In this document: positions 14,739 through 60,879 of the stretch, piece by piece
How positions within the stretch are numbered: position 1 is the stretch's first letter
Layout of the letters: each line of letters starts with the position of its first letter
Source of the DNA: Promicromonospora iranensis
Lineage (GTDB): Bacteria > Actinomycetota > Actinomycetes > Actinomycetales > Cellulomonadaceae
Direction: 5' to 3'
DNA length: 64,000 nt
Assembly: GCF_028994805.1 (NCBI RefSeq)
Contig: NZ_JAJQQP010000001.1
Span: 124,001-188,000 of the forward strand
Translations under genes and position numbers: made by a program
The notes under the pieces: generated by a model
Seen by the model: the letters and a program-made list of their open reading frames with translations, nothing else
Database searches by the model: none
Told to the model about the DNA's origin: nothing

Positions 14739-14801
14739 CGTTGAGTGCTGGGTATTTGCGCTCCAGGAGCCCGGAACAGCGCAAATACCCAGCACTCAAC
14801 G
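14739..14801. terminator. Long perfect hairpin, family A, between convergent genes
   Basis: The arms 14739-14762 and 14778-14801 are exact reverse complements over 24 bases (core TTGAGTGCTGGGTATTTG) with a 15-base loop. It separates the 3' ends of the CE15 and PL11 genes, so a bidirectional terminator is likely. The arm sequence recurs at 30288, 52106 and 60823. Confidence 0.65.
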
Positions 14802-14807
14802 AGGGGG

Positions 14808-17147
14808 TCAGGGGCGGGTCACTGTCGACCAGTCGGTGTCCGAGGCCAGGTAGAAGCCCGGGTACGACGGCTGGTTGTACGACGTCTGCTGACGTGCCAC
14901 CTCGACGCGGTACTGCCGGTCCTGCATGAGCGCGTACAGGGCGATGTCGGTCGGCTCGGTGGTCGTGAACAGCCGCAGCGCACTCGAGTCCGTGGTCCGC
15001 ACCAGCACCTCCTCGCGCCAGTCGCCGAGCACGTCGGCCACGAGGGACGGGTTGCCCTTGGTGCCGTTGTTCGTCAGCGTCCCGTCCAGGGTCGCCACCG
15101 TGCCGCGCGACCGGTCCTTGATCGTCGGCACCGCATCGCCCGAGCCCTCGATGATCTGCGTGGTCCCGTCACCGGCCCAGCGCACCGACTGGTTCGTGCC
15201 CATGGTCGTCGACGACACCTGCTCCCCCGTGGCACTCAGCGTGCCCGACCCGAGCGTGCCGTCCGGCATGGACGCCCACACCTCGATGCCCGGCACGTCC
15301 GGCTGTACGTCGCCGATCATCGCCCGGCCGGTGTCCCGCCCGGAGTACTGCCCGAACAGCACCTCGCCGTCCTCCGCCGAACGCAGCGCGGAGCCGTACG
15401 GGGCCCACGCGCCGCCCTCGTGCGCGGTCCAGATCTCGAGCCCGGGACGCGCCGGGTCGATGTCGGTCACGTGCATGGCGTCGCCGTGGCCCAGCCCGGC
15501 CTGCGCACCCGGGTTCGCCGAGCCTTCGGGCAGCGTGTCGGACGACGAGTACAGCAGCGAGCCGTCGTCGTCGAGGGTCGCCGAACCGTAGACGATCTCC
15601 TGCTTGCCGTCCGCGTCGACGTCGGCCGCCGAGAGCGAGTGGAAGCCCTGCGTGGTGAGGCTGCCCCACTCGGGCGAGGTGCCCGGCACGCCGTGCGGGC
15701 TGTCGTTGAACGGGTTGGACATCGGCGTCCAGCCCGAGTCGGCCAGCCAGCGCTTGGTCAGTCGCTTGCCGTCCCAGTCGTACGCCGCGACCGTGGAGCG
15801 AGTGTAGTAGCCGCGCGCGAAGATCGCGCTGGGCCGCCCCTCGGACAGGTAGGCCACGCCCGCGAGGAACCGGTCCACCCGGTTGCCCGGCTCGATGCGC
15901 GACATGGCGTAGTCACCCCAGAGCAGGCCGTCGTCGGTGCGCCCCGGCTCGTAGTCGACGGTCTGCATGGGCTTGCCGCTCCGCCCGTCGAAGACCGTGA
16001 GGTATTCCGGGCCGCTGATGACGAAGCCCTCGAAGCTGCGCAGCTGGTTCCGCGTCGAGCGGGCCGGCGCGTAGACGTCGATGAAGTGGTCGGCCGCGGC
16101 GCGGGCGTCGGCGTCGGACAGCGGGTAGGACCACCGGGCGTCGAGGCCCCATGCCTCCTCGAGGGTGGCGGGCCACTGCCCGCTGGTCACCTCGGACCGC
16201 GACGACCAGCCGCGGAACACGTCCACGAGGTGCTCGTAGTAGTCGCCGGCCGACATCCGGTAGTCGTCGGCGTGGGTCACACCGGCCGCCCGGTCGTCCC
16301 GCGGGATCCCGATGTAGCGCTGCCCAGCGGGCCTGCCGTTGCGGTACGTGGTCACGCGTGTGCCGGGGGCCGTCTTGACCATCAGCTCGGCGCGGCCGTC
16401 GCCGTCGAAGTCGTAGACGGGGAACTGCGCGTAGTGCGCGCCCGCGCGGATGTTGACGCCCAGGTCGACGCGCCAGAGCTGCGTGCCGTCGAGCTCGTAG
16501 GCGTCGAGGTAGGCGTTGCCGGTGTACCCGACCTGCGACACGTCCTTGGAGTTGGACGGGTCCCACTTCACGACGATCTCGTACTCGTCGTCGCCGTCGA
16601 GGTCCGCGACGGACGCGTCGTTGGCGCGGTACGTGTAGGCCTCGCCCGCCGGCGTGACGCCGTCGGCAGGCTTGTTCAGCGGGATGTCGAGGTGCCCGTC
16701 GCCCCAGACGGTGGTCGTCGCCGACCGGCCCGCGCTCGGCCCGCTGAGCGGCACCACCCGGTACCGCGAGTCGGCGGTCCCGGCGACGTCGAGGTAGTTG
16801 GTCGAGCCCGACACCTTCGCGACGCGCCGCCCGTCGCGGAACACCGCGAAGTCGGGACCCTTGAGCCCGGCGTCGGTATGACCGGTGACCTCCGGCGCGA
16901 GCAGCCGCCAGCTGAGGAACACCCCCTCGCTGGTCGCCGCGGCGACGAGGCCGCGACCGAGCCGCTCGGTTCCGGACCGCTCTCCACCCCGGTCGCCCTG
17001 GGCTGTGGTCTCCACGGCCTGGGCCGCCGCCGGCACGTTCGTGGGGGCGGCCACCGTACCGGCCGACGCCGCCACCGGTACGCCGCTCACGCCGAGGCAG
17101 AGCGCTGTCGCCAGGACAGCACCCGCCCGGATTCTCCTCGGGACCAT
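14808..17147 (-). CDS. Secreted rhamnogalacturonan lyase, family PL11
   Basis: Exported lyase of 779 residues that should cut the rhamnose-galacturonate backbone of rhamnogalacturonan I by beta-elimination. The signal peptide covers about 1-30. The mature protein opens with a fibronectin-like beta domain, then the PL11 beta-propeller with repeated calcium-binding, Asp-rich blades (DLDGDDEYEIVVKWD, DFDGDGRAELMVKT, ADVDADGKQEIVYGS). It ends SYNQPSYPGFYLASD, typical of YesW/YesX-like proteins. The ATG at 17147 has GAGAGGAA 8 bases upstream. It diverges from the PcRGLX-type lyase gene; two operator-like sites lie between them. No carbohydrate-binding module is evident beyond the N-terminal region. 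Confidence 0.92.
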   Translation of the reverse strand: MVPRRIRAGAVLATALCLGVSGVPVAASAGTVAAPTNVPAAAQAVETTAQGDRGGERSGTERLGRGLVAAATSEGVFLSWRLLAPEVTGHTDAGLKGPDFAVFRDGRRVAKVSGSTNYLDVAGTADSRYRVVPLSGPSAGRSATTTVWGDGHLDIPLNKPADGVTPAGEAYTYRANDASVADLDGDDEYEIVVKWDPSNSKDVSQVGYTGNAYLDAYELDGTQLWRVDLGVNIRAGAHYAQFPVYDFDGDGRAELMVKTAPGTRVTTYRNGRPAGQRYIGIPRDDRAAGVTHADDYRMSAGDYYEHLVDVFRGWSSRSEVTSGQWPATLEEAWGLDARWSYPLSDADARAAADHFIDVYAPARSTRNQLRSFEGFVISGPEYLTVFDGRSGKPMQTVDYEPGRTDDGLLWGDYAMSRIEPGNRVDRFLAGVAYLSEGRPSAIFARGYYTRSTVAAYDWDGKRLTKRWLADSGWTPMSNPFNDSPHGVPGTSPEWGSLTTQGFHSLSAADVDADGKQEIVYGSATLDDDGSLLYSSSDTLPEGSANPGAQAGLGHGDAMHVTDIDPARPGLEIWTAHEGGAWAPYGSALRSAEDGEVLFGQYSGRDTGRAMIGDVQPDVPGIEVWASMPDGTLGSGTLSATGEQVSSTTMGTNQSVRWAGDGTTQIIEGSGDAVPTIKDRSRGTVATLDGTLTNNGTKGNPSLVADVLGDWREEVLVRTTDSSALRLFTTTEPTDIALYALMQDRQYRVEVARQQTSYNQPSYPGFYLASDTDWSTVTRP

Positions 17148-17221
17148 CGTCGAATTCCTCTCTGAATTCTGCACTGGGAGGGTGCCCGACGGCGACGTTG
17201 CCGCCGGGCACCGCGCGGTCC

Positions 17222-17233
17222 TGAAAGGATTCA
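17222..17233. promoter_or_regulatory. LacI-type operator in the divergent lyase promoter region, site 1
   Basis: TGAAAGGATTCA matches the recurrent operator except at the centre (GG for CG). It lies 75 bases before the PL11 start in the 287-base region between the two lyase genes. Confidence 0.5.
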
Positions 17234-17255
17234 AGACCAGAGACGAGGCTGTCTC

Positions 17256-17267
17256 TAAATCGGTACA
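17256..17267. promoter_or_regulatory. LacI-type operator in the divergent lyase promoter region, site 2
   Basis: TAAATCGGTACA matches TGAATCGATACA (28969) at 10 of 12 positions. Its centre lies 34 bases from site 1. The rest of the 17148-17434 gap shows no convincing gene. Confidence 0.4.
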
Positions 17268-17434
17268 AGGTCAAGACCCGGGCTCATCCGATGGCTGCGC
17301 GTAAATGTCCGTTCCGCCATCCGGCGACGTTCCTGGACCTACCTTCCCTGCGGAAGCTGCTGGACCTGCGCGCGTCGACGCCGACCGAGCAGGAGCTCGA
17401 CATCCGAGTGCACCACCCGAAGGAGATGAACATC

Positions 17435-20161: not shown

Positions 20162-20204
20162 CCCGCGCCAGTCGCCGCTCGCACGCCTGCGCGGCGGGCG
20201 GGGG

Positions 20205-20897
20205 TCAGAGACGGTCGAGCCGGCGGGTCTCGACCGCCACCGCCGCCAGGCTGAGCAGGCCGCCCGTCACCAGCACGAGCGGCGTGAGCATCCAGACCAG
20301 CACCACGCACATGGCCAGGGCGGCGACCAGCAGCGCGGACCCGGCCACGTCGTCGCGGGCCCGGGCGGCTCCGCGCGACAGCAGCTGCCGGACGCCACCC
20401 GTGCCCGGCGTGGCCGTCGAGCCCGGCGCCGTGTCGTCGTCGGACCATGCGGCCGCGGCGCGCACCAGCACCACCGCGGCGCACACGGCGACCACCCACG
20501 TCACCCAGCGGACGGCGGACGAGCCCGGGAGCGCGCCCGACGCCGTCAGCCCGGTGTTGACCACGACGACGACCACGGCGAGCACCACCAGCACGCCCAG
20601 CAGCCAGAGGCCGCGCACCGCCGCGACCCAGTCCCGTACGAAGGTGCGCACGGAGGTGTCATAGCCGCCGAGATGACGGCGCAGGTGCGCGACGCCGGCC
20701 GCGAGCGCCGCGGGCAGCGTCACCAGGGGCAGGCTCCCGACAAGAACGAGGAGCCCGGTCAGCAGCGTCTCGCCGAGGAGGGCGAACCGGCTCTCGCCCG
20801 CCACGCGGCGGCCACGCTCCGGCTGCTCCTCGGGCTCGTCGGCCTGCTCCTGAGAGTTCACGGGGACCCCGACTCCTCTGTCGGACGGCGGCGACAC
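20205..20897 (-). CDS. DUF624 (YesL-like) membrane protein
   Basis: Integral membrane protein of 230 residues with four to six hydrophobic segments, for example GETLLTGLLVLVGSLPLVTLPAA near 40-65 and the Val-rich GVLVVLAVVVVVVNTGL near 105. YesL-type DUF624 proteins recur in rhamnogalacturonan and oligosaccharide ABC-importer clusters of Gram-positives, but their role is unknown. The start is a GTG with GGAG 8 bases upstream. A LacI-type operator lies 25 bases before it (20922-20933), tying it to the rhamnose/rhamnogalacturonan set. The upstream lipoprotein gene is in the same orientation, 139 bases away. Confidence 0.75.
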   Translation of the reverse strand: MSPPSDRGVGVPVNSQEQADEPEEQPERGRRVAGESRFALLGETLLTGLLVLVGSLPLVTLPAALAAGVAHLRRHLGGYDTSVRTFVRDWVAAVRGLWLLGVLVVLAVVVVVVNTGLTASGALPGSSAVRWVTWVVAVCAAVVLVRAAAAWSDDDTAPGSTATPGTGGVRQLLSRGAARARDDVAGSALLVAALAMCVVLVWMLTPLVLVTGGLLSLAAVAVETRRLDRL

Positions 20898-20921
20898 CTG
20901 CGTCGCTCCGCCGTCGCGTCC

Positions 20922-25690: not shown

Positions 25691-25700
25691 CCCAGGCGGG

Positions 25701-30287: not shown

Positions 30288-30346
30288 TTGAGTGCGGGAT
30301 ATTTGTCCAACCGAGCGGGCTGAGACAACAAATATCCCGCACTCAA
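30288..30346. terminator. Long perfect hairpin, family A, after the hexuronate operon
   Basis: The arms 30288-30306 (TTGAGTGCGGGATATTTGT) and 30328-30346 are exact reverse complements over 19 bases with a 21-base loop. It lies 14 bases past the reductase stop and upstream of the Gfo/Idh promoter. Confidence 0.65.
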
Positions 30347-30359: not shown

Positions 30360-31853
30360 TCAGCGGTTGACCGCGCCGATCTCCGCGGCCACCGCGTCCA
30401 GGAAGCTCTCCGGCGTGCTCTCGGGCAGCAGCCCCGGCAGCCCGAGCAGCGCCCGGACGTCCTCCTCGGCGCCGGCCAGGCCTTCGACGTCGCCCAGGCC
30501 GTCGGCGCCGCCCGGCACCTCGAAGGCAGTGACCACCGCGGCCAGTTCCTCCGCCCGGGGGTCGTCCACACCCTCTCCGGAGCGCGTCCGGCGTCGGACG
30601 AACTCGGCCCAGGCGGCCAGGCCGAACGCCACGCCCGCCGGCTCCCGGCCGTCGGCGAGCGCGTCCGCGAGGACACCGCCCCACCGGAACGGGATCTTCT
30701 GCGTGCCGTCCATCGCCACCTGCGCGGTGGTGTGCCCGGTGTGCGGGTTGGCGAACCGGGCAAGGATCTGCTCGCCGTACTGGTGCAGGTCCAGGCCGTC
30801 GGGCGCGGTGAGCGTCGGCAGCGCGTCCTCGAAGAGATACTGCCTGGCACGCTGCGCGATCACCGGGTCGGTCACCGCCGCCGCGATGGTCGCGTGCCCG
30901 GCGAGCCACCCGGAGTACGCGACGAGCGAGTGCGTCCCGTTGAGCAGCCGCAGCTTGGCCTGCTCGAACGGCGCGACGTCCTTGGTGAGTGTGGCGCCGG
31001 CGGCCTCCCACGCGGGGCGCGGGCCGGCGAACCGGTCCTCGATGACCCACTGCGCGAACGGTTCGCCGACCACGAGCCCTTCGTCCCGCACACCGAGTGC
31101 CTGCGCGACGTGGTCGCGCTGCTCCGGCGTCGTCGCGGGCACGATCCGGTCGACCATGGAGCACGGGAACGTGACCCGGGCGTCGAGGAACCCACGCAGG
31201 GTGTCTCCCTCCGTGCCCGGGAGACCGGCGTCCGCCGCCTGGCGCAGCAGGCGTTCGAGCACCCGTCCGTTGTCCACCATGTTGTCGCAGGTCAGTACGG
31301 TGATCGGGGCGCCGGAGGCCGCGCGTGCCGCGAGGCCGCGCACCAGGAGCCCGATCGCCGAGCCGGCCGCACGGACGGAGGTCTCCCCGCGGGCGTCGGC
31401 CCGGAGCGCCTCGAGGTCCCCCGCCACAGCGTCCAGGTCGAGGGACCCGTCCGGTCGCCGGGCGTACCCCTTCTCCGTGATGGTCAGCGTCACCACGTGG
31501 GTGGTCGGCGCCGCGAGCGTCGCCAGCACCCGCTCGGTCTCCTCGGCGGGATAGGCGACGTCGACGACCGAGCCGATCAGCTCGACCGACGACTCCTGCT
31601 CGCCCGCCGTCAGCACCGCGTACACGCCGCCCTGAGGACGGAGCTGGTCGCGGACCGTCGCGGACCGCTGGGTCACGCCGAGGATGCCCCACGAGGTGTC
31701 CCCCGTGGCGATCGCCGCGCGTTCGGTATAGACGGCCTGGTGAGCCCGGTGGAACGCCCCGATGCCGAGGTGGACGATGCCCACCGCCGTCGGCATCACC
31801 GGCGCGTCGATGCCCACGGGGACGTTGTCCCGGTGCAGGCGGTCGTCAGTCAT
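30360..31853 (-). CDS. Mannitol-dehydrogenase-family oxidoreductase, probable fructuronate/tagaturonate reductase
   Basis: NAD(P)-dependent polyol/aldonate dehydrogenase of 497 residues. The N-terminal Rossmann part opens VGIVHLGIGAFHRAHQAVYT. The C-terminal catalytic part holds the invariant KLRLLNGTHSLVAYSG, in which the Lys, Asn and His form the family's active site. UxuB/UxaB enzymes of this family reduce fructuronate to mannonate or tagaturonate to altronate. The pairing with uxaC and a LacI-controlled importer supports this, although mannitol dehydrogenase cannot be excluded from sequence alone. Last gene of the operon; its start overlaps the upstream permease by 8 bases. Confidence 0.85.
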   Translation of the reverse strand: MTDDRLHRDNVPVGIDAPVMPTAVGIVHLGIGAFHRAHQAVYTERAAIATGDTSWGILGVTQRSATVRDQLRPQGGVYAVLTAGEQESSVELIGSVVDVAYPAEETERVLATLAAPTTHVVTLTITEKGYARRPDGSLDLDAVAGDLEALRADARGETSVRAAGSAIGLLVRGLAARAASGAPITVLTCDNMVDNGRVLERLLRQAADAGLPGTEGDTLRGFLDARVTFPCSMVDRIVPATTPEQRDHVAQALGVRDEGLVVGEPFAQWVIEDRFAGPRPAWEAAGATLTKDVAPFEQAKLRLLNGTHSLVAYSGWLAGHATIAAAVTDPVIAQRARQYLFEDALPTLTAPDGLDLHQYGEQILARFANPHTGHTTAQVAMDGTQKIPFRWGGVLADALADGREPAGVAFGLAAWAEFVRRRTRSGEGVDDPRAEELAAVVTAFEVPGGADGLGDVEGLAGAEEDVRALLGLPGLLPESTPESFLDAVAAEIGAVNR

Positions 31854-37174: not shown

Positions 37175-37220
37175 TGCAAACGTTTGCACTCTACCCTAGG
37201 TTAGAGTGCAAACGTTCGCA
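37175..37220. promoter_or_regulatory. Paired LacI operators between lacI and uxaC
   Basis: TGCAAACGTTTGCA (37175-37188, perfect palindrome) and TGCAAACGTTCGCA (37207-37220) form the ends of one 46-base inverted repeat. The outer 19 bases pair with a single mismatch around the centre CCCTAGGT. The site type differs from the rhamnose operators, so a separate repressor is used. Confidence 0.75.
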
Positions 37221-37278: not shown

Positions 37279-38706
37279 ATGACCCCATGGACCCTGCACC
37301 CCGACCGAGCGCTGCCCGCCGACCCTGTGACGCGGCCGATCGCCCGCGAGATCTACCAGGCGGTGCGGGACCTCCCGATCGTGTCGATGCACGGCCACGT
37401 CGACGTCGCCGCCTTCGCGGACGACGAGCCGTTCCCCGACCCCGCCCAGCTCCTCGTGGTGCCCGACCACTACCTGACGCGGATGCTCGTGTCGCAGGGC
37501 GCGAAGCTGCCCGAGCTGGGGGTGGGCCCGGCGGACACTCCCGGCCTCGAGTCGGACCCCCGCGAGATCTTCCGGCGTTTCTGCGGGGGCTGGAAGCACT
37601 TCCGGGGCACGCCCACGCGGTACTGGTTGGAGCACGAGCTCGTCGAGATCTTCGGCGTGACGGTGCGGCCGTCCGCCGAGACCGCCGACCAGGTCTACGA
37701 CCAGATCGCGGAGTGCCTCGCCGACCCGTCCTTCCGGCCGCGCGCCCTCCTCGACCGGTTCGGCATCGAGACCATCGGCACCACCGACCCGGCGTGGAGC
37801 ACCCTCGAGGACCACGCCCGCCTTGCCGTCGACCTGCCGGGCCGCGTGCTGCCGACCTTCCGCCCGGACCCGCTGCTGCACCCCGCGCGCCGGACCTGGC
37901 AGGGTGACCTGGAGCGGCTCGCCGCGGCGTCGGGCATCGCCACCGACACCTACACCGGCTACCTGGCGGCGCTCCGCGAGCGCCGTGCCGCCTTCGTCGC
38001 GGCCGGCGGCCTGGCCACCGACCACGGCCACCTCAGCGCGGACACCACCCCGCTGCCCGACGACGCCGCGCGCAACCTGTTCGAGAAGGCGCTGAAGGGC
38101 GGCACGGACGGCTCGGGGATCAGCACGGCGGAGGAGGCGGCTTTCTCCGCGCACATGCTGTTCCAGATGGCGGCGATGTCCGCGGAGGACGGCCTGGTCA
38201 TGCAGCTCCACCCGGGCGTGCTGCGGGATCACGACCCGGCGGTCGCCGCCACGTTCGGACCCGACAAGGGGTACGACATCCCCGTCGTGACCGAGTTCGC
38301 GCACGGCCTGAGGCCCGTGCTGGAGGCGTTCGGCAGCTCGGAGAGCTTCCGGATGATCGCCTTCACCGTGGACGAGGACGTGTACTCGCGGGAGCTGGCG
38401 CCGCTGGCGGGCGTGTACCCGGCGCTCCGGCTCGGGGCGCCGTGGTGGTTCCTGGACGCGCCGGACGCGATGCGCCGGTTCCGGGAGGCGGCCACGGAGA
38501 CCGCGGGCTTCTCGAACATGTCGGGCTTCGTCGACGACACCCGCGCGTTCTGCTCGATCCCCGCGCGCCACGACCTGGCCCGCCGGGTGGACGCCGGCTA
38601 CCTGGCCCGCCTGGTGGCCGAGCACCGGCTCGAGCTGGACGAGGCGCTCGACACCGCGGCCGACCTGGCCTATCACCTGCCGAAGCTGGCCTACGCGGCC
38701 CGCTGA
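37279..38706 (+). CDS. uxaC: Glucuronate/galacturonate isomerase
   Basis: Uronate isomerase of 475 residues that converts D-glucuronate to D-fructuronate or D-galacturonate to D-tagaturonate. It has the amidohydrolase-like metal site MHGHVD (His38, His40), the TRYWLEHELVEIFGV segment, FRPDPLLHP, VMQLHPGVLRDHD, and the family end segment GFVDDTRAFCSIPARHDLARRVDAGYLARLV. The ATG at 37279 has AGGAG 7 bases upstream; the open frame before it crosses the operators. Divergent from the LacI gene. A long hairpin follows the stop. Confidence 0.94.
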   Translation: MTPWTLHPDRALPADPVTRPIAREIYQAVRDLPIVSMHGHVDVAAFADDEPFPDPAQLLVVPDHYLTRMLVSQGAKLPELGVGPADTPGLESDPREIFRRFCGGWKHFRGTPTRYWLEHELVEIFGVTVRPSAETADQVYDQIAECLADPSFRPRALLDRFGIETIGTTDPAWSTLEDHARLAVDLPGRVLPTFRPDPLLHPARRTWQGDLERLAAASGIATDTYTGYLAALRERRAAFVAAGGLATDHGHLSADTTPLPDDAARNLFEKALKGGTDGSGISTAEEAAFSAHMLFQMAAMSAEDGLVMQLHPGVLRDHDPAVAATFGPDKGYDIPVVTEFAHGLRPVLEAFGSSESFRMIAFTVDEDVYSRELAPLAGVYPALRLGAPWWFLDAPDAMRRFREAATETAGFSNMSGFVDDTRAFCSIPARHDLARRVDAGYLARLVAEHRLELDEALDTAADLAYHLPKLAYAAR

Positions 38707-38743
38707 GCGGGCCCGCGCCGACTGGCCGACCCGTGCCGACCCG

Positions 38744-38815
38744 CCCTCTTCGAGGTCTAAGTTTTCTCCCCTCTGAAGCGTTTCAGAGCGGAGAAAACTT
38801 AGACCTCGAAGAGGG
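38744..38815. terminator. Long perfect hairpin, family B, between uxaC and the SGNH gene
   Basis: The arms 38744-38769 and 38790-38815 are exact reverse complements over 26 bases (core TTCGAGGTCTAAGTTTTCTC). The apex CTCTGAAGCGTTTCAGAG adds a further 7-bp stem with a 4-base loop. It lies between convergent gene ends. The arm recurs at 45101-45160. Confidence 0.65.
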
Positions 38816-38841
38816 TGGGTGGGCCGTGCCGGGGCGGCGGG

Positions 38842-40023
38842 TCAGCTGCGGGGCGGGGCCAGCGGAGCAGCCTCGGCGAAGGCCAGCGCCGCGAAGCGTT
38901 CGCCGATGCGGCGGTGCGTGGCGTCGTCCGGGTGGAGCCGGTCGGGCAGGGGCAGCTCGTCGGCGTCGGCGGGGCCGTACAGCGCGCGGCCGTCGAGGTG
39001 GTGCAGGTTCGGGTCGTCGCCCGCGCGCTCCGCCACGATGCGGGCGAGGTGCTCGCGGATCACGGTGAGGGTGAGCTTGCCCGCCGCCCGCTCGGCCGGG
39101 TCGCCCGTGGCGCGGAACCGCAGCTGCCCCTCGGCGAGAGCCGCGGTGTCGAAGGCGCCGGGGCCTGGCGTGTCCTCGTGGATCGGGCAGAGGATGGGTG
39201 AGACCACCAGCAGCGGCGTGTCCGGATGGCCGTCGCGGACGGTGTCGAGGAACCCGTGGACGGCGGGGCCGAAGGCGCGCAGGCGCATGAGGTCGGCGTT
39301 CACGATGTTGATGCCGATCTTCAGGCTGATCAGGTCGGCGGAGGTGTCACGCATGACACGTGCGGTGAACGGGTCGAGCAGCGCGCTGCCACCGAACCCG
39401 AGGTTGACGAGGTCGACCCCGCCGAGCGCCGCGGCCACCGCGGGCCACGTGCCCGTGGGCCGCACCGCGTTGGAGCCCTGGCTGATCGAGCTGCCGTGGT
39501 GCAGCCACACGGGCCGCCGTTCCGGCGAGGGGCGCACCGGGGCGTCGGTGCGCAGCTCGACGAGCTCGACGGTCTCGTTGTGGGGCAGCCAGAGCTCGAC
39601 GGACTTCTCGCCGTCCGGCAGCTCGTCGAACCGGACGCCGTCGACGCCGCCCTGCTCGACCTCGCGGGCGCCCGTGGCCATGTCGATGGTCACGACGGTG
39701 GCCGCCGCGAGGCTGCCGTGCCCGGCAGGGCGGCCATCGACCACCAGGTCGAAGACGCCGAGCGGCCTGGCCGGAGCGCCGCGGAAGCCGAACCGGGTCG
39801 CGAGCGCGCGCAGCTCGATGCTCGTGGCGGCGGTCGTGAAGGCCAGTCGCACCCCGGAGGGCTGGGACTCGGCCATGGCGAGCTGGGGGTCGGCGGCCTG
39901 GGTCCGCGCCCAGGCCGGCAGCCGGTGCACCCGGACGCCGGACGGTGTCTGCTCGAGCTCGGGGGCGCCGCGCAGCAGGTCGGCGGTCACAGGGGTGGTG
40001 TGCTGGAGCAGCCGGGCGGTCAT
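38842..40023 (-). CDS. SGNH/GDSL-type carbohydrate esterase
   Basis: Hydrolase of 393 residues without a signal peptide. The N-terminal half is a beta-rich domain (LLRGAPELEQTPSGVRVHRLPAWA). The C-terminal half is an SGNH fold with WLHHGSSISQGSNAV (Ser nucleophile), a NLGFGGSALLDPF block II, KIGINIVNADL block III and DRLHPDDATH, the catalytic Asp-His pair. Such enzymes deacetylate xylan or pectin oligomers. The ATG at 40023 is taken although no strong ribosome site is visible. It is divergent from the GH67 gene and probably works on the same imported oligosaccharides. Confidence 0.82.
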   Translation of the reverse strand: MTARLLQHTTPVTADLLRGAPELEQTPSGVRVHRLPAWARTQAADPQLAMAESQPSGVRLAFTTAATSIELRALATRFGFRGAPARPLGVFDLVVDGRPAGHGSLAAATVVTIDMATGAREVEQGGVDGVRFDELPDGEKSVELWLPHNETVELVELRTDAPVRPSPERRPVWLHHGSSISQGSNAVRPTGTWPAVAAALGGVDLVNLGFGGSALLDPFTARVMRDTSADLISLKIGINIVNADLMRLRAFGPAVHGFLDTVRDGHPDTPLLVVSPILCPIHEDTPGPGAFDTAALAEGQLRFRATGDPAERAAGKLTLTVIREHLARIVAERAGDDPNLHHLDGRALYGPADADELPLPDRLHPDDATHRRIGERFAALAFAEAAPLAPPRS

Positions 40024-45041: not shown

Positions 45042-45100
45042 GATCCTGCTCCTCAAGTTGGTGCGGAGAGCTCGATGCCGAACCGGTCAGGATCCTCCCC

Positions 45101-45160
45101 TTCGAGGTCTATCTTTCTCCGCTCTGAATCGGTTCAAAGCGGAGAAAGATAGACCTCGAA
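45101..45160. terminator. Long perfect hairpin, family B, between PPOX and YnfA genes
   Basis: The arms 45101-45123 and 45138-45160 pair perfectly over 23 bases (core TTCGAGGTCTATCTTTCTCC). The apex TGAATCGGTTCA is itself a 12-base dyad. The remaining sequence of the 291-base gap 45042-45332 shows no gene or other clear signal. Confidence 0.6.
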
Positions 45161-45332
45161 AAGGAGTGACGGTCGACTGTCACCAGGTCTGACCGGCGGC
45201 GAGCCCGGAAGTCATCGGAGCTGTGCTCGTCGGCGCGCCGGACCGGGAGCTGGTACCGGTCACAGACGATCGCCGAGGGCCGGACCAGAGGTCGGCCGGC
45301 TGGAGGAGAGGTCCGGTCAGGTGGCCTGGCGG

Positions 45333-52105: not shown

Positions 52106-52168
52106 CGTTGAGTGCGGGATATTTGTCCTTCAGAAGCGTTCCGAAGGGCAAATATCCCGCACTCAACG
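52106..52168. terminator. Long hairpin, family A, between the LplA-type gene and GH39
   Basis: The arms 52106-52125 and 52149-52168 pair perfectly over 20 bases (core TTGAGTGCGGGATATTTG). They continue through a G-U pair into an inner CCTTC/GAAGG stem. It lies 26 bases past the lipoprotein stop. Confidence 0.65.
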
Positions 52169-52194
52169 CCGGGCTCAGGGCCGGTCAGGCGGGG

Positions 52195-53853
52195 TTACTC
52201 GGTGACGCCTGCTGCGGAGTTCGCGCGGTCGACGTACTCCTGCATCCCTGAGCCCTCGAGCTCGGCGACGTAGGCGTCCCACTCGTCCAGCGGACGCTGA
52301 CCCAGGATGAACTGGGCCGTGGCCTGGAAGACCATGTCCTGCAGCGTCGTCTGCTGGAGCCCTGCCTGCTCCTGCTCCATCTCGTCGTAGGCGACGGCCG
52401 GCGGGATGTCCAGCTCCTCCTTGACCGCGTTCATGTCCTGGATGTACTCGATCGCCTCCTCGCTGCGCATCGACAGGTCCAGATCCTGGGTCGAGCCGTG
52501 GGCCAGGGAGAAGACGCCGTTGTAGTAGCCGAAGTCGGCGTTGAGCAGCTGGGGCGCACCGGTGTTCAGGGCGCCCCACTCGATGTCCTCCTTGAGGACG
52601 CGCTTGTCGCCCTCCCACTCGAACGTCTCGCCCTCGACGCCCCACTTGGCGAACTCGAGGCCCTCGTCGGAGTAGTACAGCCAGTCGACGAACTGCAGCA
52701 TCGCCAGGAAGTCCTCCTGCTCGGCGGCACCGGCGGCGAACATCAGACCGGACTCGCGGCGCGTGCCACCGGCGATGTTGTCGCCGGCCGGACCGCCGGG
52801 AACCGTGATCATCTCGATCTCGGAGTCCTCGTCACCGATCTCCTCGAAGGCGCTCCGGTACTCCAGGATGACCTGGTCGTTGGTACCGATCGCGGCGGCC
52901 TGGCCCGAGGCGAACTTCTGCTGGGCCTGCTCGTCCTCCTGGGTGAGCGCCTCCGGGTCGAGCAGCCCGTCCTCGACCAGACCGGCGAAGTACTCCACGA
53001 GGGTCCGGTACTCCTCCGAGGCACCGGCGTACACGTAGGTGCCTTCGTCCTGGTTCCACTGCAGGCCCAGGCCGTAGCCCCAGCCCGCCACCGTGCCGAA
53101 GTTCGGCGCGGCCGCGGAGATCGTGGCCTCGACCGGTCCGTTGATCGACCAGCGGTCGGTCATCGGGTACTGCAGGTCCGGGTTCTCCTCCTTGATCACC
53201 TGGAGCTGTTCCGCGTACTCGTCCCAGGTCGCCGGGTGCTCCAGGCCTGCCTTTTCCCAGAGGTCCTTGCGGATGGCGACCGTGTAGGTGCCAGGGATGA
53301 CGATCTCGTGGATCCCCGGGATCATGTAGTACTTGCCGTCCTCCTGCTTCTGGGCGTCGATCTCCTCCTGCAGGTCCCACGCCTCGACCTTCTCCTGGAA
53401 GTTCGGCATGTACTGCACGTAGTCGGAGATCGGCAGCAGGGCGCCACCGCTCACGAACGGCGCCTCGTCCCCGGGGTAGGTGACGGGCATGATGTCCGGT
53501 GCGTCACCGGAGCTGATCAGGACCGACCGGCGCTGGGCCATATCCTCCAGCGGCACGTTCTCGTAGTCGAACGTGACGTTCTGGTCCTGCTCCAGGTGCT
53601 GGATGATCGACCAGTCGTCCTTGAACGGATAGTTCGGGTGGTCGCGGTACAGCAGGCCGAAGCTGACCGGCTCGGTCGCCTTGAACGTGGTGCCGGCTTC
53701 GAAGTCCTCCATGTAGCCGACCTGCGTCGCCGTGTCGATGGCGCCGTCCTCGCCGCCGTCGTCACCGTCGCTGCCGACCGAGCACGCGGTGAGCGTGACG
53801 GCCAGGACCGATGCGGTGATGCCCGCGGCGGTCCTTCTGCGGGTGATCCTCAT
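52195..53853 (-). CDS. Oligosaccharide-binding lipoprotein, LplA/YtcQ type
   Basis: 552-residue extracellular binding protein with signal peptide and lipobox VTLTACSVG. The family features are LLYRDHPNYPFKDDWSIIQHLEQDQNVTF, DIMPVTYPGDEAPFVSGGALLPISDYV and YYMIPGIHEIVIPGTYTVAIRKDLWEKAG. LplA-like proteins are large and serve importers of complex, often uronate-containing oligosaccharides. GGAGGAG precedes the ATG. It stands downstream of the two permease genes with an 85-base gap. Confidence 0.88.
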   Translation of the reverse strand: MRITRRRTAAGITASVLAVTLTACSVGSDGDDGGEDGAIDTATQVGYMEDFEAGTTFKATEPVSFGLLYRDHPNYPFKDDWSIIQHLEQDQNVTFDYENVPLEDMAQRRSVLISSGDAPDIMPVTYPGDEAPFVSGGALLPISDYVQYMPNFQEKVEAWDLQEEIDAQKQEDGKYYMIPGIHEIVIPGTYTVAIRKDLWEKAGLEHPATWDEYAEQLQVIKEENPDLQYPMTDRWSINGPVEATISAAAPNFGTVAGWGYGLGLQWNQDEGTYVYAGASEEYRTLVEYFAGLVEDGLLDPEALTQEDEQAQQKFASGQAAAIGTNDQVILEYRSAFEEIGDEDSEIEMITVPGGPAGDNIAGGTRRESGLMFAAGAAEQEDFLAMLQFVDWLYYSDEGLEFAKWGVEGETFEWEGDKRVLKEDIEWGALNTGAPQLLNADFGYYNGVFSLAHGSTQDLDLSMRSEEAIEYIQDMNAVKEELDIPPAVAYDEMEQEQAGLQQTTLQDMVFQATAQFILGQRPLDEWDAYVAELEGSGMQEYVDRANSAAGVTE

Positions 53854-55869: not shown

Positions 55870-55938
55870 CGCTGTCCTCCGGCCACGACGTCGTGCCCCG
55901 GACCCGTCGCTGGACCCGGTCCACATCGTCGTGGAACG

Positions 55939-55972
55939 TTTTCGAAAACTATCGGCTCGATTGCCGATAGTT
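55939..55972. promoter_or_regulatory. Operator region before the LplB-type operon
   Basis: The palindrome TTTTCGAAAA (55939-55948) runs directly into an inverted repeat, AACTATCGGC (55947-55956) and GCCGATAGTT (55963-55972). The TTTCGAAA core recurs beside the divergent LacI gene at 56125, so both genes are probably bound by that repressor. Confidence 0.55.
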
Positions 55973-56124
55973 TGGTTTCTCGGACAGTAGGGTGACTCCG
56001 CTCACACAGTCAAGCCATGGTCACCCCGTACCAGGTCACGATTCGATGTCGCCCGGTCTCCGCCAAACCGGGCGCTTCTGCGGTGTACCGTCAGACGTAA
56101 CGGGCCGAAAGTTGCGGCGACAGG

Positions 56125-56132
56125 TTTCGAAA
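56125..56132. promoter_or_regulatory. Second TTTCGAAA site, before the LacI gene
   Basis: TTTCGAAA within GGTTTCGAAAAGG lies 17 bases before the ATG at 56150, a position suited to autoregulation. The rest of the 280-base divergent gap shows no other clear site. Confidence 0.4.
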
Positions 56133-56149
56133 AGGTGGTAGCGACCGGT

Positions 56150-57196
56150 ATGGCTGAGCTCAGCACTGGAACGGGTGGACGGGCCCCCGTGGCGCCGACA
56201 CCGACGATCGCCACGATCGCGCGCGAGGTCGGCGTCTCGGTACCGACGGTGTCGAAGGTGCTGAACGGCCGGGCCGACGTCGCCCCCGCCACCCGCGACC
56301 GCGTCGAGGCCGCCCTGGAGAAGCACCAGTACCGCCGTCGCCGTCCGGCGACCGCGCCACCGGGCACCGGGCTGATCGATCTGGTGTTCCACCGGCTCGG
56401 CTCGGCCTGGTCGATGGAGATCATCCGCGGCGTCGAGCGGGCCGCGGCCGCACACCGCACGAGCGTGATCCTGTCCGAGCTGGGTGGTGAGCACCGGCCG
56501 CCGCAGACCTGGCTCGACACGACGATGTCACGGCCACCGCTCGGCGTGCTGCTCGTCGCCGCGAACCTCACCGACGCCCAGCACCAGCAGCTCGACCGGC
56601 GCAGCATCCCCTACGTGGTGATCGACACCGACGGCGAGCCCCCTGCCGACGTCGCCTCGGTGGGCTCCGACAACTGGAACGGCGGGCTGCAGGCCACTCG
56701 CCACCTGCTGGCACTGGGGCACCGCCGGATCGCGATGATCACCGGGCCGTGGGACATGCTGTGCAGCCGCGCGCGCGTCGACGGGTTCCGCTCGGCACAC
56801 GACGAGGCCGGCGCCGTCGTCGACCCGGAGCTGGTGCGCGAGGGCAACTTCTACACCGAGGCCGGCTTCGACCGGGGCATGGAGCTGCTGAGCCTGCCGG
56901 ACCGCCCGACGGCGGTGTTCGCCGGTTCCGACATGCAGGCCCTCGGACTGCTCCGCGCCGCCCACCAGCTCGGCCTGCGCGTGCCGGAGGACCTGTCGGT
57001 GGTGGGCTACGACGACCTGCCGCTGGCCTCCTGGGTGGGCCCGCCGCTGACGACCGTGCGGCAGCCGCTCGCCGAGATGGGAGCGGCCGCCACGCAGATC
57101 CTGCTCGACATCGCACGGGGGCGGCCACCGAAGGTCAGCCGTCTCAACCTCTCGACCGAGCTGGTGGTCAGGGACTCGACGGCACCACCGAGCTGA
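56150..57196 (+). CDS. LacI-family regulator of the LplABC/GH39 locus
   Basis: 348-residue repressor. The helix-turn-helix is at about 20-70 (PTIATIAREVGVSVPTVSKVLNGRADV), with a typical hinge and a periplasmic-binding-type sensor domain (VASVGSDNWNGGLQATRHLLALGHRRIAMITGP). The recognition helix VPTVSKVLNG differs from the other two LacI proteins here, in line with its different TTTCGAAA sites. The ATG at 56150 is taken; a GTG at 56135 is possible. Divergent from the importer operon. Confidence 0.88.
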   Translation: MAELSTGTGGRAPVAPTPTIATIAREVGVSVPTVSKVLNGRADVAPATRDRVEAALEKHQYRRRRPATAPPGTGLIDLVFHRLGSAWSMEIIRGVERAAAAHRTSVILSELGGEHRPPQTWLDTTMSRPPLGVLLVAANLTDAQHQQLDRRSIPYVVIDTDGEPPADVASVGSDNWNGGLQATRHLLALGHRRIAMITGPWDMLCSRARVDGFRSAHDEAGAVVDPELVREGNFYTEAGFDRGMELLSLPDRPTAVFAGSDMQALGLLRAAHQLGLRVPEDLSVVGYDDLPLASWVGPPLTTVRQPLAEMGAAATQILLDIARGRPPKVSRLNLSTELVVRDSTAPPS

Positions 57197-57215
57197 GCCC
57201 GCGCCGTCGGGTCGC

Positions 57216-58211
57216 TCAGACCGAGCGCGCGTGCGCCGCGAGCCGGTCGAACGCCGCGTCCAGCTCGGCGTCCACCACCTGCGCCTCGGGGTGGGCGTCG
57301 AACCACGACATCTGCTCCGCCGCGCCGACGTCGTAGGTGATGGTGGTGCCGAACTCGGGCACCAGCGCCCGCACCTTCGAGATGTCGAAGACCATCGAGT
57401 GCGCCTTGTCCCCCACCAGCCCCGGCCCGATCTCGGGAAGCACCCGGGCGACCGTCTCGGACGCGACGTGCACCAGGTCGGGGTTCGGCACGCCCGCCGC
57501 GTCGGCCAGCCAGGTGTAGATCTGGTCCCAGGTGGGGGCGTGCGTCCCGGTGATGTGGAAGGTGTCCCCGACGGCGAGCGGGTGGCCGAGCAGGCCCACG
57601 AACCCGACCGCGAAGTCCTCGGTGTGCGTCAGCGTCCACAGCGACGTGCCGTCACCGTGGACGACCACCGGCTTGCCGGCGCGCAGGCGGGCGACGTCGG
57701 TCCACCCGCCCGACGTCGGCAGCAGCGTGCGGTCGTACGTGTGCGACGGTCGCACGATCGTCGCGGGGAACCCGTTGTCCCGGTACTCGCGGACCAGCAG
57801 GTCCTCGCACGCGATCTTGTCCCGCGAGTACTGCCAGAACGGGTTGCGCAGCGGCGTCGACTCCCGGACGGGCAGCCGCGACGGCGGCGTCTGGTACGCC
57901 GACGCCGACGAGATGAACACGTACTGCGCGGTCCGGCCCGCGAACTGCGCGACGTCGCGGGCCACGTGCTCCGGGCTGAACGCCCGGAACTGCGCGACGA
58001 CGTCGAACTCCCGTGAGCCCAGCGCCTCGGCGACCGCCCCGGCGTCGTTCGCGTCCGCGACAAGGGTCTCGACGTCCGCGGGGAGCGGACGGATCGAGGA
58101 CCGGCCTCTGTTGAGCACCGTCACCCGGTGCCCGAGCCGTGCGGCCCGGGCCACCGAGGCATGGCTGATGATTCCGCTTCCACCGATGAACAGGATGCTC
58201 TTGGACGACAT
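57216..58211 (-). CDS. NAD-dependent epimerase/dehydratase-family protein
   Basis: 331-residue extended SDR protein. The N-terminal Rossmann motif is FIGGSGIISHASVARAARLGHRVTVLNRG (a GGxGxxS variant), with SSASAYQTP and YSRDK as the catalytic Tyr-Lys region near 130. The C-terminal half resembles the sugar-nucleotide or isoflavone-reductase-like branch found next to sugar-acid genes. No substrate is assigned. GAGGA precedes the ATG. Downstream of kdgK with a 29-base gap, so probably in the same transcript. Confidence 0.8.
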   Translation of the reverse strand: MSSKSILFIGGSGIISHASVARAARLGHRVTVLNRGRSSIRPLPADVETLVADANDAGAVAEALGSREFDVVAQFRAFSPEHVARDVAQFAGRTAQYVFISSASAYQTPPSRLPVRESTPLRNPFWQYSRDKIACEDLLVREYRDNGFPATIVRPSHTYDRTLLPTSGGWTDVARLRAGKPVVVHGDGTSLWTLTHTEDFAVGFVGLLGHPLAVGDTFHITGTHAPTWDQIYTWLADAAGVPNPDLVHVASETVARVLPEIGPGLVGDKAHSMVFDISKVRALVPEFGTTITYDVGAAEQMSWFDAHPEAQVVDAELDAAFDRLAAHARSV

Positions 58212-58240
58212 GTCGCCAATCCTCGCACCCCAAGGCCAGG

Positions 58241-59341
58241 TCAGCGCTGTACGCGGGCACTTCCTCCGCCGGCCAGCTTGGCGACCTCGGCGAGCGTCAC
58301 CATGGTGGTGTCGCCCGGGGTCGTCATCGCGAGCGCACCGTGGGCGGCGCCGTACTCGACGGCCTCCTGGAGCGAGCCCAGCTCCATGAGCCCGTACGCC
58401 AGGCCCGAGGCGAACGAGTCGCCGCCACCGACGCGGTCGAAGATCTCCAGGTCGGCCCGGTGGGTGGCCTCGGCGAAGCCCTCCTTGCGCGACCAGGCGA
58501 CGGCACCCCAGTCGTTGCGCGACGCCGACCGCACCCCACGCAGCGTCGTCGCGATCACCTGGAAGTTCGGGTACGCCTCGGACGCGGTCTCGATCATGGC
58601 CCGGAACGCACCGGTGTCCAGGTCGGTGAGGTTCTCGTCGACGCCCTCGACCTCGAACCCGAGCGAGGCCGTGAAGTCCTCCTCGTTGCCGATCATCACG
58701 TCGACGTGCCGGGCCAGACGCCGGTTGACCTCCCGGGCGCGCTCCTCGCCGCCGATGCCCTTCCACAGCGAGGGCCGGTAGTTCAGGTCGTACGACACGA
58801 TGGTCCCGTGGCGGCGGGCGGCCGCCATCGCGGCCTCGGCGACGTCGGCGCTGCTCTCGGAGAGCGCGGCGAAGATCCCGCCCGTGTGCAGCCAGCGCAC
58901 GCCCCGGGAGAACAGCGCGTCCCAGTCGACGTCGTCGGGCTTCATCTGCGAGATGGCGGTGTTGCCGCGGTCGCTCACCCCGACGGCGCCGCGCGCCCCG
59001 AAGCCGCGCTCCGTGAAGTTGAGGCCGTTGCGCACCTGGCGGCCGATGCCGTCGTACGGAACCCACTGCACGTGCCGGGTATCGAGGCCGCCGGTGAGCA
59101 TGAAGTCCTCGACCAGCCGGCCGATCTCGTTGTCGGCGAGCGCCGTCACGATCGCGCCGCGCAGACCGAAGCAGCGGCGCAGACCGCGGGCGACGTTGTA
59201 CTCGCCGCCGCCCTCCCACACGTCGAAGTTGCGGGCGGTGCGCACGCGCCGGTTGCCCGGGTCGAGGCGAAGCATCACCTCGCCGAGGGCGACGACGTCG
59301 TACGCGCTCTCGGCGGCGGGGCGGACGGTGAGCGAGGTCAT
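58241..59341 (-). CDS. kdgK: 2-keto-3-deoxygluconate kinase (PfkB family)
   Basis: 366-residue sugar kinase that phosphorylates 2-keto-3-deoxygluconate (KDG), the meeting point of uronate and pectin breakdown. The N-terminal motif is ALGEVMLRLDPG with EGGGEYNVARGL, the sugar-binding glycines. The C-terminal DRVGGGDSFASGLAYGL has the catalytic Asp in GGGD near 310. The start overlaps the eda stop by 1 base (TGATG). Somewhat longer than average KdgK because of inserts in the middle. The role is supported by the directly linked aldolase gene. Confidence 0.9.
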   Translation of the reverse strand: MTSLTVRPAAESAYDVVALGEVMLRLDPGNRRVRTARNFDVWEGGGEYNVARGLRRCFGLRGAIVTALADNEIGRLVEDFMLTGGLDTRHVQWVPYDGIGRQVRNGLNFTERGFGARGAVGVSDRGNTAISQMKPDDVDWDALFSRGVRWLHTGGIFAALSESSADVAEAAMAAARRHGTIVSYDLNYRPSLWKGIGGEERAREVNRRLARHVDVMIGNEEDFTASLGFEVEGVDENLTDLDTGAFRAMIETASEAYPNFQVIATTLRGVRSASRNDWGAVAWSRKEGFAEATHRADLEIFDRVGGGDSFASGLAYGLMELGSLQEAVEYGAAHGALAMTTPGDTTMVTLAEVAKLAGGGSARVQR

Positions 59342-60018
59342 CAGTTCTTCCCTTCCTTGCTGGTCGAGCCGGTCACGATCTGTGCGGCGAGCGCCACGGC
59401 GTCGCGCGTGCGGGTGGTGATCTGGTCCCAGTCGCCCGCGGTGACGAGCTGGCGGTCGACCATCCAGGAGCCGCCGACGGCGAGCACGGGCTTCAGCGTC
59501 AGGTAGTCGGCGAGGTTGGCGGTGCTGACGCCGCCCGTCGGCACGAACCGCAGGCCCGGGAACGGCGCGGAGAAGGCCTTGATGGCCGCCGGTCCGCCGA
59601 CGACGGACGCCGGGAACAGCTTGACGACGTCGATCCCGAGGTCGAGTGCGGCCATGATCTCCGACGGCGTGGCTACGCCGGGCAGCACGGGGATGCCGTG
59701 CTCCTGGGCGCGCCGCACGACGGCGGCCGACAGCCCCGGGGACACGATGTAGCGGGCGCCGGCGGCGGCGACGTCGTCCACCTGCTGCGCGGTGGTCACG
59801 GTGCCCGCGCCCACGACGACGTCGGGATGGTTCTTCGCGACCGCGCGGATGGCGTCGACGCCGCCCGCGAGCCGCAGCGTGATCTCGGCGACGGGCAGGC
59901 CGCCCGCGACGAGCGCGTCGGCCAGGCGGGCGCCCTCGTCGGCGCCGTCGACCACGACGACCGGCACGAGCCGGTGGGCGGCGAGGGTCTCGAGGACTGT
60001 GCTGTCCGCGGATGACAT
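59341..60018 (-). CDS. eda: 2-keto-3-deoxy-6-phosphogluconate aldolase
   Basis: 225-residue class I aldolase that splits KDPG to pyruvate and glyceraldehyde 3-phosphate. Glu45 lies in AEITLR and the Schiff-base Lys133 in DVVKLFPAS. GAGTVTTAQQV and RFVPTGGVS are the phosphate-binding loops. First gene of eda-kdgK-epimerase and divergent from the IclR gene. Together with KdgK it completes the route from hexuronates to central metabolism. Confidence 0.93.
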   Translation of the reverse strand: MSSADSTVLETLAAHRLVPVVVVDGADEGARLADALVAGGLPVAEITLRLAGGVDAIRAVAKNHPDVVVGAGTVTTAQQVDDVAAAGARYIVSPGLSAAVVRRAQEHGIPVLPGVATPSEIMAALDLGIDVVKLFPASVVGGPAAIKAFSAPFPGLRFVPTGGVSTANLADYLTLKPVLAVGGSWMVDRQLVTAGDWDQITTRTRDAVALAAQIVTGSTSKEGKN

Positions 60019-60026
60019 CGGATCTC

Positions 60027-60066
60027 CGTTTCGCTATGGTGAACGCCTGTTGTTCACTGCGAAACG
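60027..60066. promoter_or_regulatory. Nested dyad between eda and the IclR gene
   Basis: CGTTTCGC (60027-60034) pairs with GCGAAACG (60059-60066), and GTGAAC (60039-60044) pairs with GTTCAC (60052-60057). It fills the 69-base divergent gap and is a likely operator for the adjacent IclR protein. Confidence 0.6.
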
Positions 60067-60087
60067 CATGCTACGTGAGGGAGCCCC

Positions 60088-60825
60088 ATGGATGCCAGCC
60101 CGCTCGGGAGCGTCGACAAGGCGCTGCTGGCGCTCGACACGCTCGCCGGCTTCGGGGCGGGGGGCGCCTCGCTGGCCGCTCTCGCGCAGGCCGTCGGTGT
60201 CAGCAAGCCGACCCTGCACCGCACGCTCGCCGCGCTGCGCCACCGGGGGTACGCCGAGCAGACCCCGGACGGCGCCTACCGGCTCGGTCCGGCCGCGCTC
60301 GCCCTCGGCAGCTCGTACCTGGCCGAGGAGAACCTGCCCGCGCTGCTGCACCCGGCCCTGACCGCACTGAGCGAGAAGACCGACGAGCTGGTGCACCTCG
60401 GTGTGCTCGCCGGGCGTGAGGTGGTCTACCTCGACAAGGTCGAGCCGCAGCGGGCGGTCCGCGTGTGGTCCGCCGTCGGGCGGCGGCGGGCGGCCGCGAC
60501 GACCGCGCTCGGCCGCGCGCTGCTGTCGGTCCAGGATCTCGACGACGCGGCGCTCGCCCGGTTCGCCGGTGACGAGGCCCGCCTGGGCCGGCTCCGCGAG
60601 GCGCTGGCCGAGGCCCGGCTCGCCGGGATCGCCGGCGAGACGGAGGAGAACGAGCCAGGCATCGCCTGCATCGCGATCCCCCTGCTCCGGGCAGGACGGG
60701 CCGTCGCGGCGGTCAGCATCACCGCGCCGGTCGAGCGGCTCACCGGCGCGGCGCGTGCCGAGCGGGTGGCGGCGCTCCGCGACGTCCTCTCGGCCCTCCT
60801 CCCGGCCGGCCTGACCACCCCGTGA
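60088..60825 (+). CDS. IclR-family regulator (KdgR-like)
   Basis: 245-residue transcription factor. The helix-turn-helix occupies about 8-65 (SVDKALLALDTLAGFG, LAQAVGVSKPTLHRTLAALRHRGYAEQ). The IclR effector domain follows (ELVHLGVLAGREVVYLDKVEP near 110, then CIAIPLLRAGRAVAAVSITAPVERL). GAGGGAG precedes the ATG. Divergent from eda-kdgK, so it probably senses KDG or a related keto-deoxy acid, as KdgR proteins do. Its stop codon forms the start of a long hairpin. Confidence 0.88.
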   Translation: MDASPLGSVDKALLALDTLAGFGAGGASLAALAQAVGVSKPTLHRTLAALRHRGYAEQTPDGAYRLGPAALALGSSYLAEENLPALLHPALTALSEKTDELVHLGVLAGREVVYLDKVEPQRAVRVWSAVGRRRAAATTALGRALLSVQDLDDAALARFAGDEARLGRLREALAEARLAGIAGETEENEPGIACIAIPLLRAGRAVAAVSITAPVERLTGAARAERVAALRDVLSALLPAGLTTP

Positions 60826-60879
60826 GTGCTGGCTATCTGCGGCTTCCGGGGCCGGAACAGCACAGATAGCCAGCACTCA
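60823..60879. terminator. Long hairpin, family A, between the IclR and SDR genes
   Basis: The arms 60823-60839 (TGAGTGCTGGCTATCTG) and 60863-60879 pair perfectly over 17 bases; the left arm begins with the IclR stop codon. The inner TTCCGG/CCGGAA forms a second stem. The two genes are convergent. Confidence 0.65.

Follow-up and report, generated by a model that had tools for sequence, protein, structure and literature searches.

In a 64,000-nucleotide (nt) stretch of the Promicromonospora iranensis genome (assembly GCF_028994805.1, contig NZ_JAJQQP010000001.1, positions 124,001 to 188,000; hereafter the window), four copies of a 59-bp palindrome, designated family A, are located behind unrelated genes. 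Our preferred reading, to which we assign a probability of roughly 0.6, is that family A is a non-autonomous mobile palindrome resembling the repetitive extragenic palindromes (REP) and the Rickettsia palindromic elements (RPE), which would settle behind stop codons, act there as a two-way terminator and carry arms that are recognised by their sequence. The evidence comprises the copy number and fixed length of the palindrome, its placement, covariation within its stem, arms that are fixed while the centre drifts, different palindrome families at orthologous gene ends, and in-frame copies that are present in some species and absent from others.

Copies, placement and anatomy of family A

The four copies had been described in an earlier note on this DNA as hairpins with the common arm TTGAGTGCkGGvTATyTG, surrounded by unrelated genes and devoid of a U-tract, and these statements were borne out. 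The arms are near-identical and each copy measures 59 bp end to end (Table 1); the arm pattern, with up to three mismatches allowed, matched the window eight times, twice per site, against a mean of 0.09 and a maximum of 2 in 100 shuffles. The genes flanking the four copies belong to different, unrelated Pfam families, and at 56 tandem sites, taken from the same genome and from related loci, the stem is followed by CG and then G-rich bases, so that the U-tract of an intrinsic terminator is lacking. One small correction concerns the fourth copy: the called gene 60088-60825 has as its stop codon a TGA that lies inside the palindrome. Comparison of the window with Rfam gave no match at gathering score.

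The earlier note had called for a search of the genome and of close relatives for the arm, regarding a lack of further copies as fatal to its idea. In the P. iranensis genome (5.84 Mb, 31 contigs), 42, 48 and 53 copies were detected with a strict, a looser and the loosest pattern, respectively, and the reversed-pattern control gave no match with any of the three. Ten of the 13 genus genomes, this one included, were positive (53, 63, 62, 23, 17, 15, 8, 6, 5, 5, 0, 0 and 0 copies), as were 15 of the 150 genomes of the family, in three of its 25 genera. With 53 copies, and with 10 of 137 distinct sequences inside genes, family A is a dispersed multi-copy extragenic palindrome in the sense of REP and bacterial interspersed mosaic elements (BIME). 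The named carriers among the matches listed were Promicromonospora species, Antribacter soli, Cellulosimicrobium marinum and one Nodosilinea. The last, a cyanobacterial record (L099:119-174) with a 56-bp palindrome and GAGTGCGGGGTAT arms, was the only one outside actinobacterial genera among those matches and may be due to chance. The P. iranensis genome has two places (L001 and L110) at which a pair of family A copies is separated by about 0.9-1.0 kb.

Gene ends were taken from our own codon-usage gene caller, not from a standard annotation. By these calls, the 137 distinct copies in the examined loci comprise 62 between convergent genes, 56 in tandem, 3 between divergent genes, 10 inside genes and 6 at locus edges. 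Of the 50 copies examined in the P. iranensis genome, 20 lie between convergent genes, 22 in tandem context, 2 between divergent genes and 6 inside genes; for the 87 copies of relatives the corresponding numbers are 42, 34, 1 and 4, with 6 at locus edges. For comparison, gaps of at least 40 bp in 448 kb of the former genome separate tandem genes in 140 cases, divergent genes in 67 and convergent genes in 34; of the 70 long palindromes of all families in the same 448 kb, 35 are in tandem context, 4 lie between divergent genes, 25 between convergent ones and 6 inside genes. The median distance to a gene 3′ end is 9 nt in P. iranensis (n = 62) and 10 nt in the relatives (n = 118); in 8 and 18 cases, respectively, the palindrome's own TGA is the stop codon (distance −4). 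Family A therefore places a stable hairpin directly behind the stop codon, as an intrinsic terminator does, and terminators without a U-tract have been discussed for actinobacteria. Placement, symmetry and stem strength suggest transcription termination. Behind genes the element would most likely be a terminator or 3′-end hairpin, and a two-way one because its arms are symmetric.

Among 142 matches in the examined loci (in which the four window copies are counted twice and the Nodosilinea match is included, corresponding to the 137 distinct sequences), the core is 59 bp long in 112 and 60 bp in 27, and three other lengths occur once each. The full element, including a flanking CG on each side, spans 63-64 bp: at 136 sites the two left-hand positions are G in 130 and C in 126, and the two right-hand positions are C in 133 and G in 124. 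Beyond them, pairing is at the level expected from composition, the left side being C-rich and the right side G-rich. In a one-arm search of the own-genome loci, most of which had been picked by the full palindrome, all 102 arms had a partner giving 59 bp (83 arms) or 60 bp (19 arms); the less circular genome-wide count of single arms, with up to two mismatches, gave 61 and 60 on the two strands among the matches listed. The GAGTGC of the arm resembles the CIRCE operator, the half-sites of which face the other way.

When 41 copies of the P. iranensis genome were compared, identity was 0.90 in the arms, a value raised by a search pattern in which 11 of the 18 bases of each arm were predetermined, and 0.39 in the centre, against 0.33 after shuffling. 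In an ungapped alignment of these copies, the covariation score over the 23-pair stem was 0.208, compared with 0.094 after shuffling (reached by 0 of 500) and no more than 0.078 after sliding. Positions 19 (p = 1.5e-11) and 20 (p = 1.7e-6) pair strongly. Positions 24 and 36, a pair chosen post hoc from 11 inspected positions, behave otherwise: position 24 is a pyrimidine (Y) in 95 of 109 cases and position 36 a purine (R) in 98 of 109, without pairing correlation (C-G 19, C-A 25, T-G 19, T-A 25). At 49 tandem 59-bp sites, where transcription is one-sided, Y was found in 44 and R in 43. Because this preference is symmetric yet unpaired, it suggests a dimer that reads double-stranded DNA, the form in which the arms would probably be recognised.

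Divergence between 25 orthologous pairs was 1.3% at arm positions 1-8, 4.0% at positions 9-18, 12% in the inner stem and 16.4% in the centre. These figures are biased, since a pair could enter only if the arm pattern matched in both of its members; they draw on only 38 sites of a named P. iranensis record, and L104/L045 may not be orthologous. Aligned in the same register, the consensus arm of a second palindrome family, C, agrees with family A at 12 of 20 positions (against a mean of 7.0 after shuffling; p = 0.013). A length of 59 bp was found at each of the 16 distinct family C sites under a pattern that allowed 58-62, and one of 60 bp at each of the 12 distinct family B sites under one that allowed 58-64. 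A single orthologous family A copy (L123:2982-3040 in G000, L041:4942-5000 in the named P. iranensis record) has its centre inverted relative to the flanks.

Copies inside genes and changing occupants of gene ends

Ten family A copies in the examined loci (six in the P. iranensis genome and four in relatives, some of them orthologous) lie in frame within genes, where they encode about 20 residues, such as LSAGY...STQ. Two of the six own genes score above curated cut-offs, namely KdpB (920 bits, cut-off 528) and an error-prone DNA polymerase (1369 bits, cut-off 939); the remaining four, below their cut-offs, encode an ABC-F-like protein, CofGH, a xanthine-dehydrogenase-like protein and an ABC ATPase. 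In kdpB, family A is present in 2 of 12 species (G000 and G002) and absent from the 10 others, and G001 gave no kdpB match. At a second site in the same gene, G009 and G010, and partly G005, have a palindrome of family E in frame; in the first two genomes (L254, L256) it is translated as RVELVET...ISTSSTSD-like residues. Of 13 genomes, 4 have an intact family A copy in the ABC-F-like gene and 3 a decayed one, and in 6 it is not recognisable. Both genes thus show the Rickettsia-type situation, in which an in-frame insertion exists beside orthologues that lack the palindrome. Eight of the 10 in-gene copies are 60 bp long, compared with 19 of 126 elsewhere (p = 3.2e-5), and it would therefore be the frame-keeping copies that survive. 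Retention of the arms inside a gene in four species suggests that termination is not the sole reason for arm retention; a mover or a DNA-binding factor that recognises them, or homogenisation among the copies, would be needed in addition.

G000 and G002 were compared over 332 orthologues with a median identity of 95.5%. At eight gene ends (genes 4, 6, 14, 67, 76, 230, 258 and 344), a palindrome of family C or D in G000 corresponds to one of family E in G002, E having been assigned by eye at some of them where the label failed. In the clearest cases the flanks align right up to the palindrome, and C/E exchange occurs behind genes of 97-98% protein identity. The family is unchanged at other ends (e.g., five A-A and four B-B), in counts that are rough because some ends scored as absent carry sub-threshold palindromes and many palindromes there have no family label.

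Different families at the same gene end were also observed across the genus genomes. Among reciprocal-best gene-end pairs of at least 80% identity from two regions (12 and 13 genomes), a long palindrome is present on both sides in 641, on one side in 434 and on neither in 1617. A common exact stretch of at least 10 nt occurs in 147 of the 641 and is lacking in 494, the rate among 1500 random palindrome pairs being 4.9%; as species pairs and convergent genes are not independent, these counts give direction, not probability. Nesting was rejected as the general route of exchange: a scan of 312 palindromes found 24 with two core matches, of which one was a clear case, a family E palindrome between the remains of A-like arms in G010, most of the others being weak matches in the flanks or pairs of cores that belong to a single larger family.

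The earlier note had stated that unrelated stems at the same loci in relatives would refute its idea. Such stems do occur, but many of the replacements belong to other dispersed palindrome families, which changes the picture without, on this comparison of genomes, removing the mobile-palindrome reading. Mobility, and likewise a mover, is suggested by the same comparison.

Long palindromes of the window and the genus

Family A appears as one of about ten recurring long-palindrome families behind genes in the genus, according to our labels. Per 448 kb, 70 long palindromes (64 outside called genes) were counted in G000 and 66 (61 outside) in G002, and the mirror-repeat control on G000 gave 1. In 1.82 Mb from the 13 genus genomes, 312 long palindromes lie outside genes, at 13.6 to 26.0 per 100 kb, and 123 of them match none of the labelled cores. 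Stretches of three genomes of the same family and of one genome of another family likewise carry long palindromes behind genes, some of them repeated. A 69-bp palindrome (CGGGATAGTCCCTGACGTAAATCAAG...) is present twice in 100 kb of G295 (L245-L249), which belongs to another family, so such repeats may extend beyond the genus. Palindromes of family D measure 133-141 bp in G011 (L223/L230) and G009 (L221/L229) and have symmetric repeated arm units, like nested copies. The idea that family E is a widespread actinobacterial repeat was rejected, as its strict palindrome, the only pattern used, was found in 2 of 296 class genomes.

The palindromes of the window are listed in Table 1. A second hairpin (CCCCCAAACTTCACCC, 5135-5175) directly adjoins the family F palindrome. 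Between divergent genes, ahead of the uxaC-like gene, lies a 46-bp palindrome (TGCAAACGTTTGCACTC..., 37175-37220), the 9-mer AACGTTTGC of which recurs in palindromes of seven genus genomes, this one included; it looks like the operator of a sugar regulator, unlike the 3′-end families. For the glucuronyl-esterase-like gene 13466-14722, the neighbour of the first family A palindrome, the syntenic stretches of 11 other genus genomes contain no orthologue.

Table 1. Long palindromes of the window. Fold energies of family A refer to 79-nt RNA stretches; genes are called genes.
Feature	Position	Strand	Core	RNA fold, kcal/mol (z-score)	Context
Family A	14739..14801	.	59 bp, 14741-14799, plus CG each side	−59.9 (−11.6)	convergent genes 13466-14722 (+) and 14808-17147 (−)
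Family A	30288..30346	.	59 bp, 30288-30346	−46.0 (−7.5)	tandem; 13 nt behind stop of gene 30360-31853 (−)
Family A	52106..52168	.	59 bp, 52108-52166, plus CG each side	−53.5 (−9.8)	behind stop of gene 52195-53853 (−)
Family A	60822..60880	.	59 bp, 60822-60880	−56.4 (−8.0)	convergent genes; its TGA is the stop of gene 60088-60825 (+)
Family B	38735..38824	.	GAGGTCTAAGTTTTCTCC	−80.0	convergent genes 37279-38706 (+, UxaC by Pfam) and 38842-40023 (−)
Family B	45095..45166	.	GAGGTCTATCTTTCTCC	−59.8 (− strand)	tandem; about 170 nt behind next called 3′ end
Family labelled F	5182..5262	.	GTAGTACGTCAGGTGATCGG		12 nt behind stop of gene beginning at 5275 (−)

A proposed mobile palindrome and its alternatives

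According to the preferred reading, family A, 59 or 60 bp in length, would be a mobile palindrome without an enzyme of its own. The palindrome families of the genus would settle mainly directly behind stop codons and occasionally in frame inside genes, and the need for a hairpin at a gene end would keep the slot while the occupying family changes. REP and BIME are dispersed palindromes in 3′ intergenic space that are associated with REP-associated tyrosine transposases (RAYT). Family A shares their dispersal and location, and differs in its near-perfect 59-60 bp stems, its in-frame copies and the lack of a Y1 transposase match in any of the 13 genus genomes.

The nearest described relatives are, as far as the available part of the source goes, the RPEs and the SPRITE, BOX and RUP elements of Streptococcus pneumoniae. 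The RPEs form ten families, with many in-frame insertions into unrelated protein-coding genes (PMC10969869), and are similar to the present case in that several palindrome families are dispersed in one genome and enter genes in frame. They measure about 150 bp, against the 59-60 bp of family A, which lies mainly behind stop codons, and in the present case unrelated families are found at orthologous gene ends; this comparison is one of descriptions. The pneumococcal elements are small inverted repeats, some terminator-like and some mutually inserting (PMC10969869, in the portion available). Such miniature inverted-repeat transposable elements differ from family A, whose centre is only about 23 bp and for which no clear target-site duplication was seen by eye and no parent transposon was seen, a systematic search for one not having been made. 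Petrillo et al. and Cozzuto et al. described repeated bacterial stem-loop families, with stem-loops concentrated 3′ of genes (PMC2267715, PMC1590033); in the available parts of these papers, Corynebacterium and Mycobacterium are the high-GC Gram-positives named, and family exchange at orthologous ends is not mentioned. In the open-licence literature, the arm sequences were not found in print, and no title or abstract opening among the papers listed describes these families.

The earlier note had suggested a REP/BIME-like mobile palindrome reused as a terminator. The 53 copies, their placement behind stop codons, the in-frame copies and the exchange of families speak for this view, whereas the REP-associated transposase that it proposed to look for did not appear. 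Several observations count against the preferred reading. The Y1 (RAYT) transposase domain PF01797 had no match in the P. iranensis genome or in any of the 13 genus genomes, in a search whose control was positive in 5 of 14 named genomes. Inspection by eye of the G000-G002 alignments listed revealed no clear target-site duplication, and no larger element with these ends was seen, the search for one having been limited to the single-arm scan. The G010 palindrome is the one clear cross-family nesting among the 312 examined, and several gene ends scored as empty contain a weaker, below-threshold palindrome. Two of the five covariation measures are weaker than the rest, namely double-sided pair changes (10 against 8.2 in shuffles, reached by 5 of 500) and further pair types (24 against 21.7, reached by 58 of 500). 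Finally, sense-strand mismatches at the 56 tandem sites are G-U in 28 and A-C in 33 cases; as G-U is not favoured, RNA pairing does not stand out as the trait under selection.

That a dedicated DNA-binding protein preserves the sequence, rather than mobility, is an alternative that we consider unlikely. A symmetric complex on both arms, which lie about 41 bp or four helical turns apart, would then form a roadblock terminator or a chromosome-organising site. Within one hairpin, covariation of the inner stem is accompanied by fixed outer arm positions, the symmetric and unpaired preference at positions 24 and 36 persists at tandem sites, and the length is constant at 59-60 bp in family A and at 59 bp in family C, all of which speak for such a protein. 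One protein would hardly explain the in-frame copies in kdpB, the ABC-F-like gene and others, nor the replacement by unrelated families behind the same genes, and no candidate turned up, although no search for one was made. The suggestion of the earlier note that a protein factor recognises the stem therefore stands in part, through the fixed arms, the drifting inner stem and centre and the one symmetric unpaired position pair.

Ordinary intrinsic terminators without a U-tract might instead have been homogenised by ectopic gene conversion or template switching, with no transposition enzyme involved, an explanation to which we attach little probability. Stop-codon placement with its convergent bias and the lack of a Y1 transposase in 13 genus genomes are in its favour, template switching would also produce arm-to-arm covariation, and the orthologous copy with the inverted centre (L123 and L041) is of the kind expected. 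Gene conversion, however, requires a pre-existing homologous copy, and family A lies in frame in kdpB, a gene in which 10 of 12 species lack any copy; the occupation of one slot by unrelated families is likewise difficult to accommodate. Inverted pairs of a DNA uptake signal, which form terminators in Neisseria and Pasteurellaceae, deserve almost no credence here and were rejected, even though a common word does recur in gene-end stems in both systems. Uptake signals occur largely as single words, whereas every one of the 102 examined arms, in loci mostly picked by the full palindrome, was paired at 59 or 60 bp. They are also very frequent, generally 1,000 times or more per genome in the available part of the source (PMC1852404), against about 60 family A arms per strand among the matches listed. 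An integron attC site, considered on account of the 59-bp length and 3′-end location of family A, was rejected as well. The attC rule demands RYYYAAC...GTTRRRY in that order, together with extrahelical bases; in family A the order of the boxes is reversed, and its stems are regular.

A mobile palindrome thus remains our preferred reading, and a further step can be proposed tentatively, namely that competing palindrome families share the gene-end slots and oust each other from them, the mover being an enzyme that would recognise the arms of a 59-60 bp palindrome as double-stranded DNA. If so, host terminators would become a habitat of selfish DNA. The dispersed palindromes of these actinobacteria occupy gene-end slots that are common across species while the families differ, and they enter genes in frame as well. 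As a whole, the finding would tie the evolution of terminators to mobile DNA, and species of about 95% protein identity may provide a setting in which the turnover of the elements can be followed and their mover sought.

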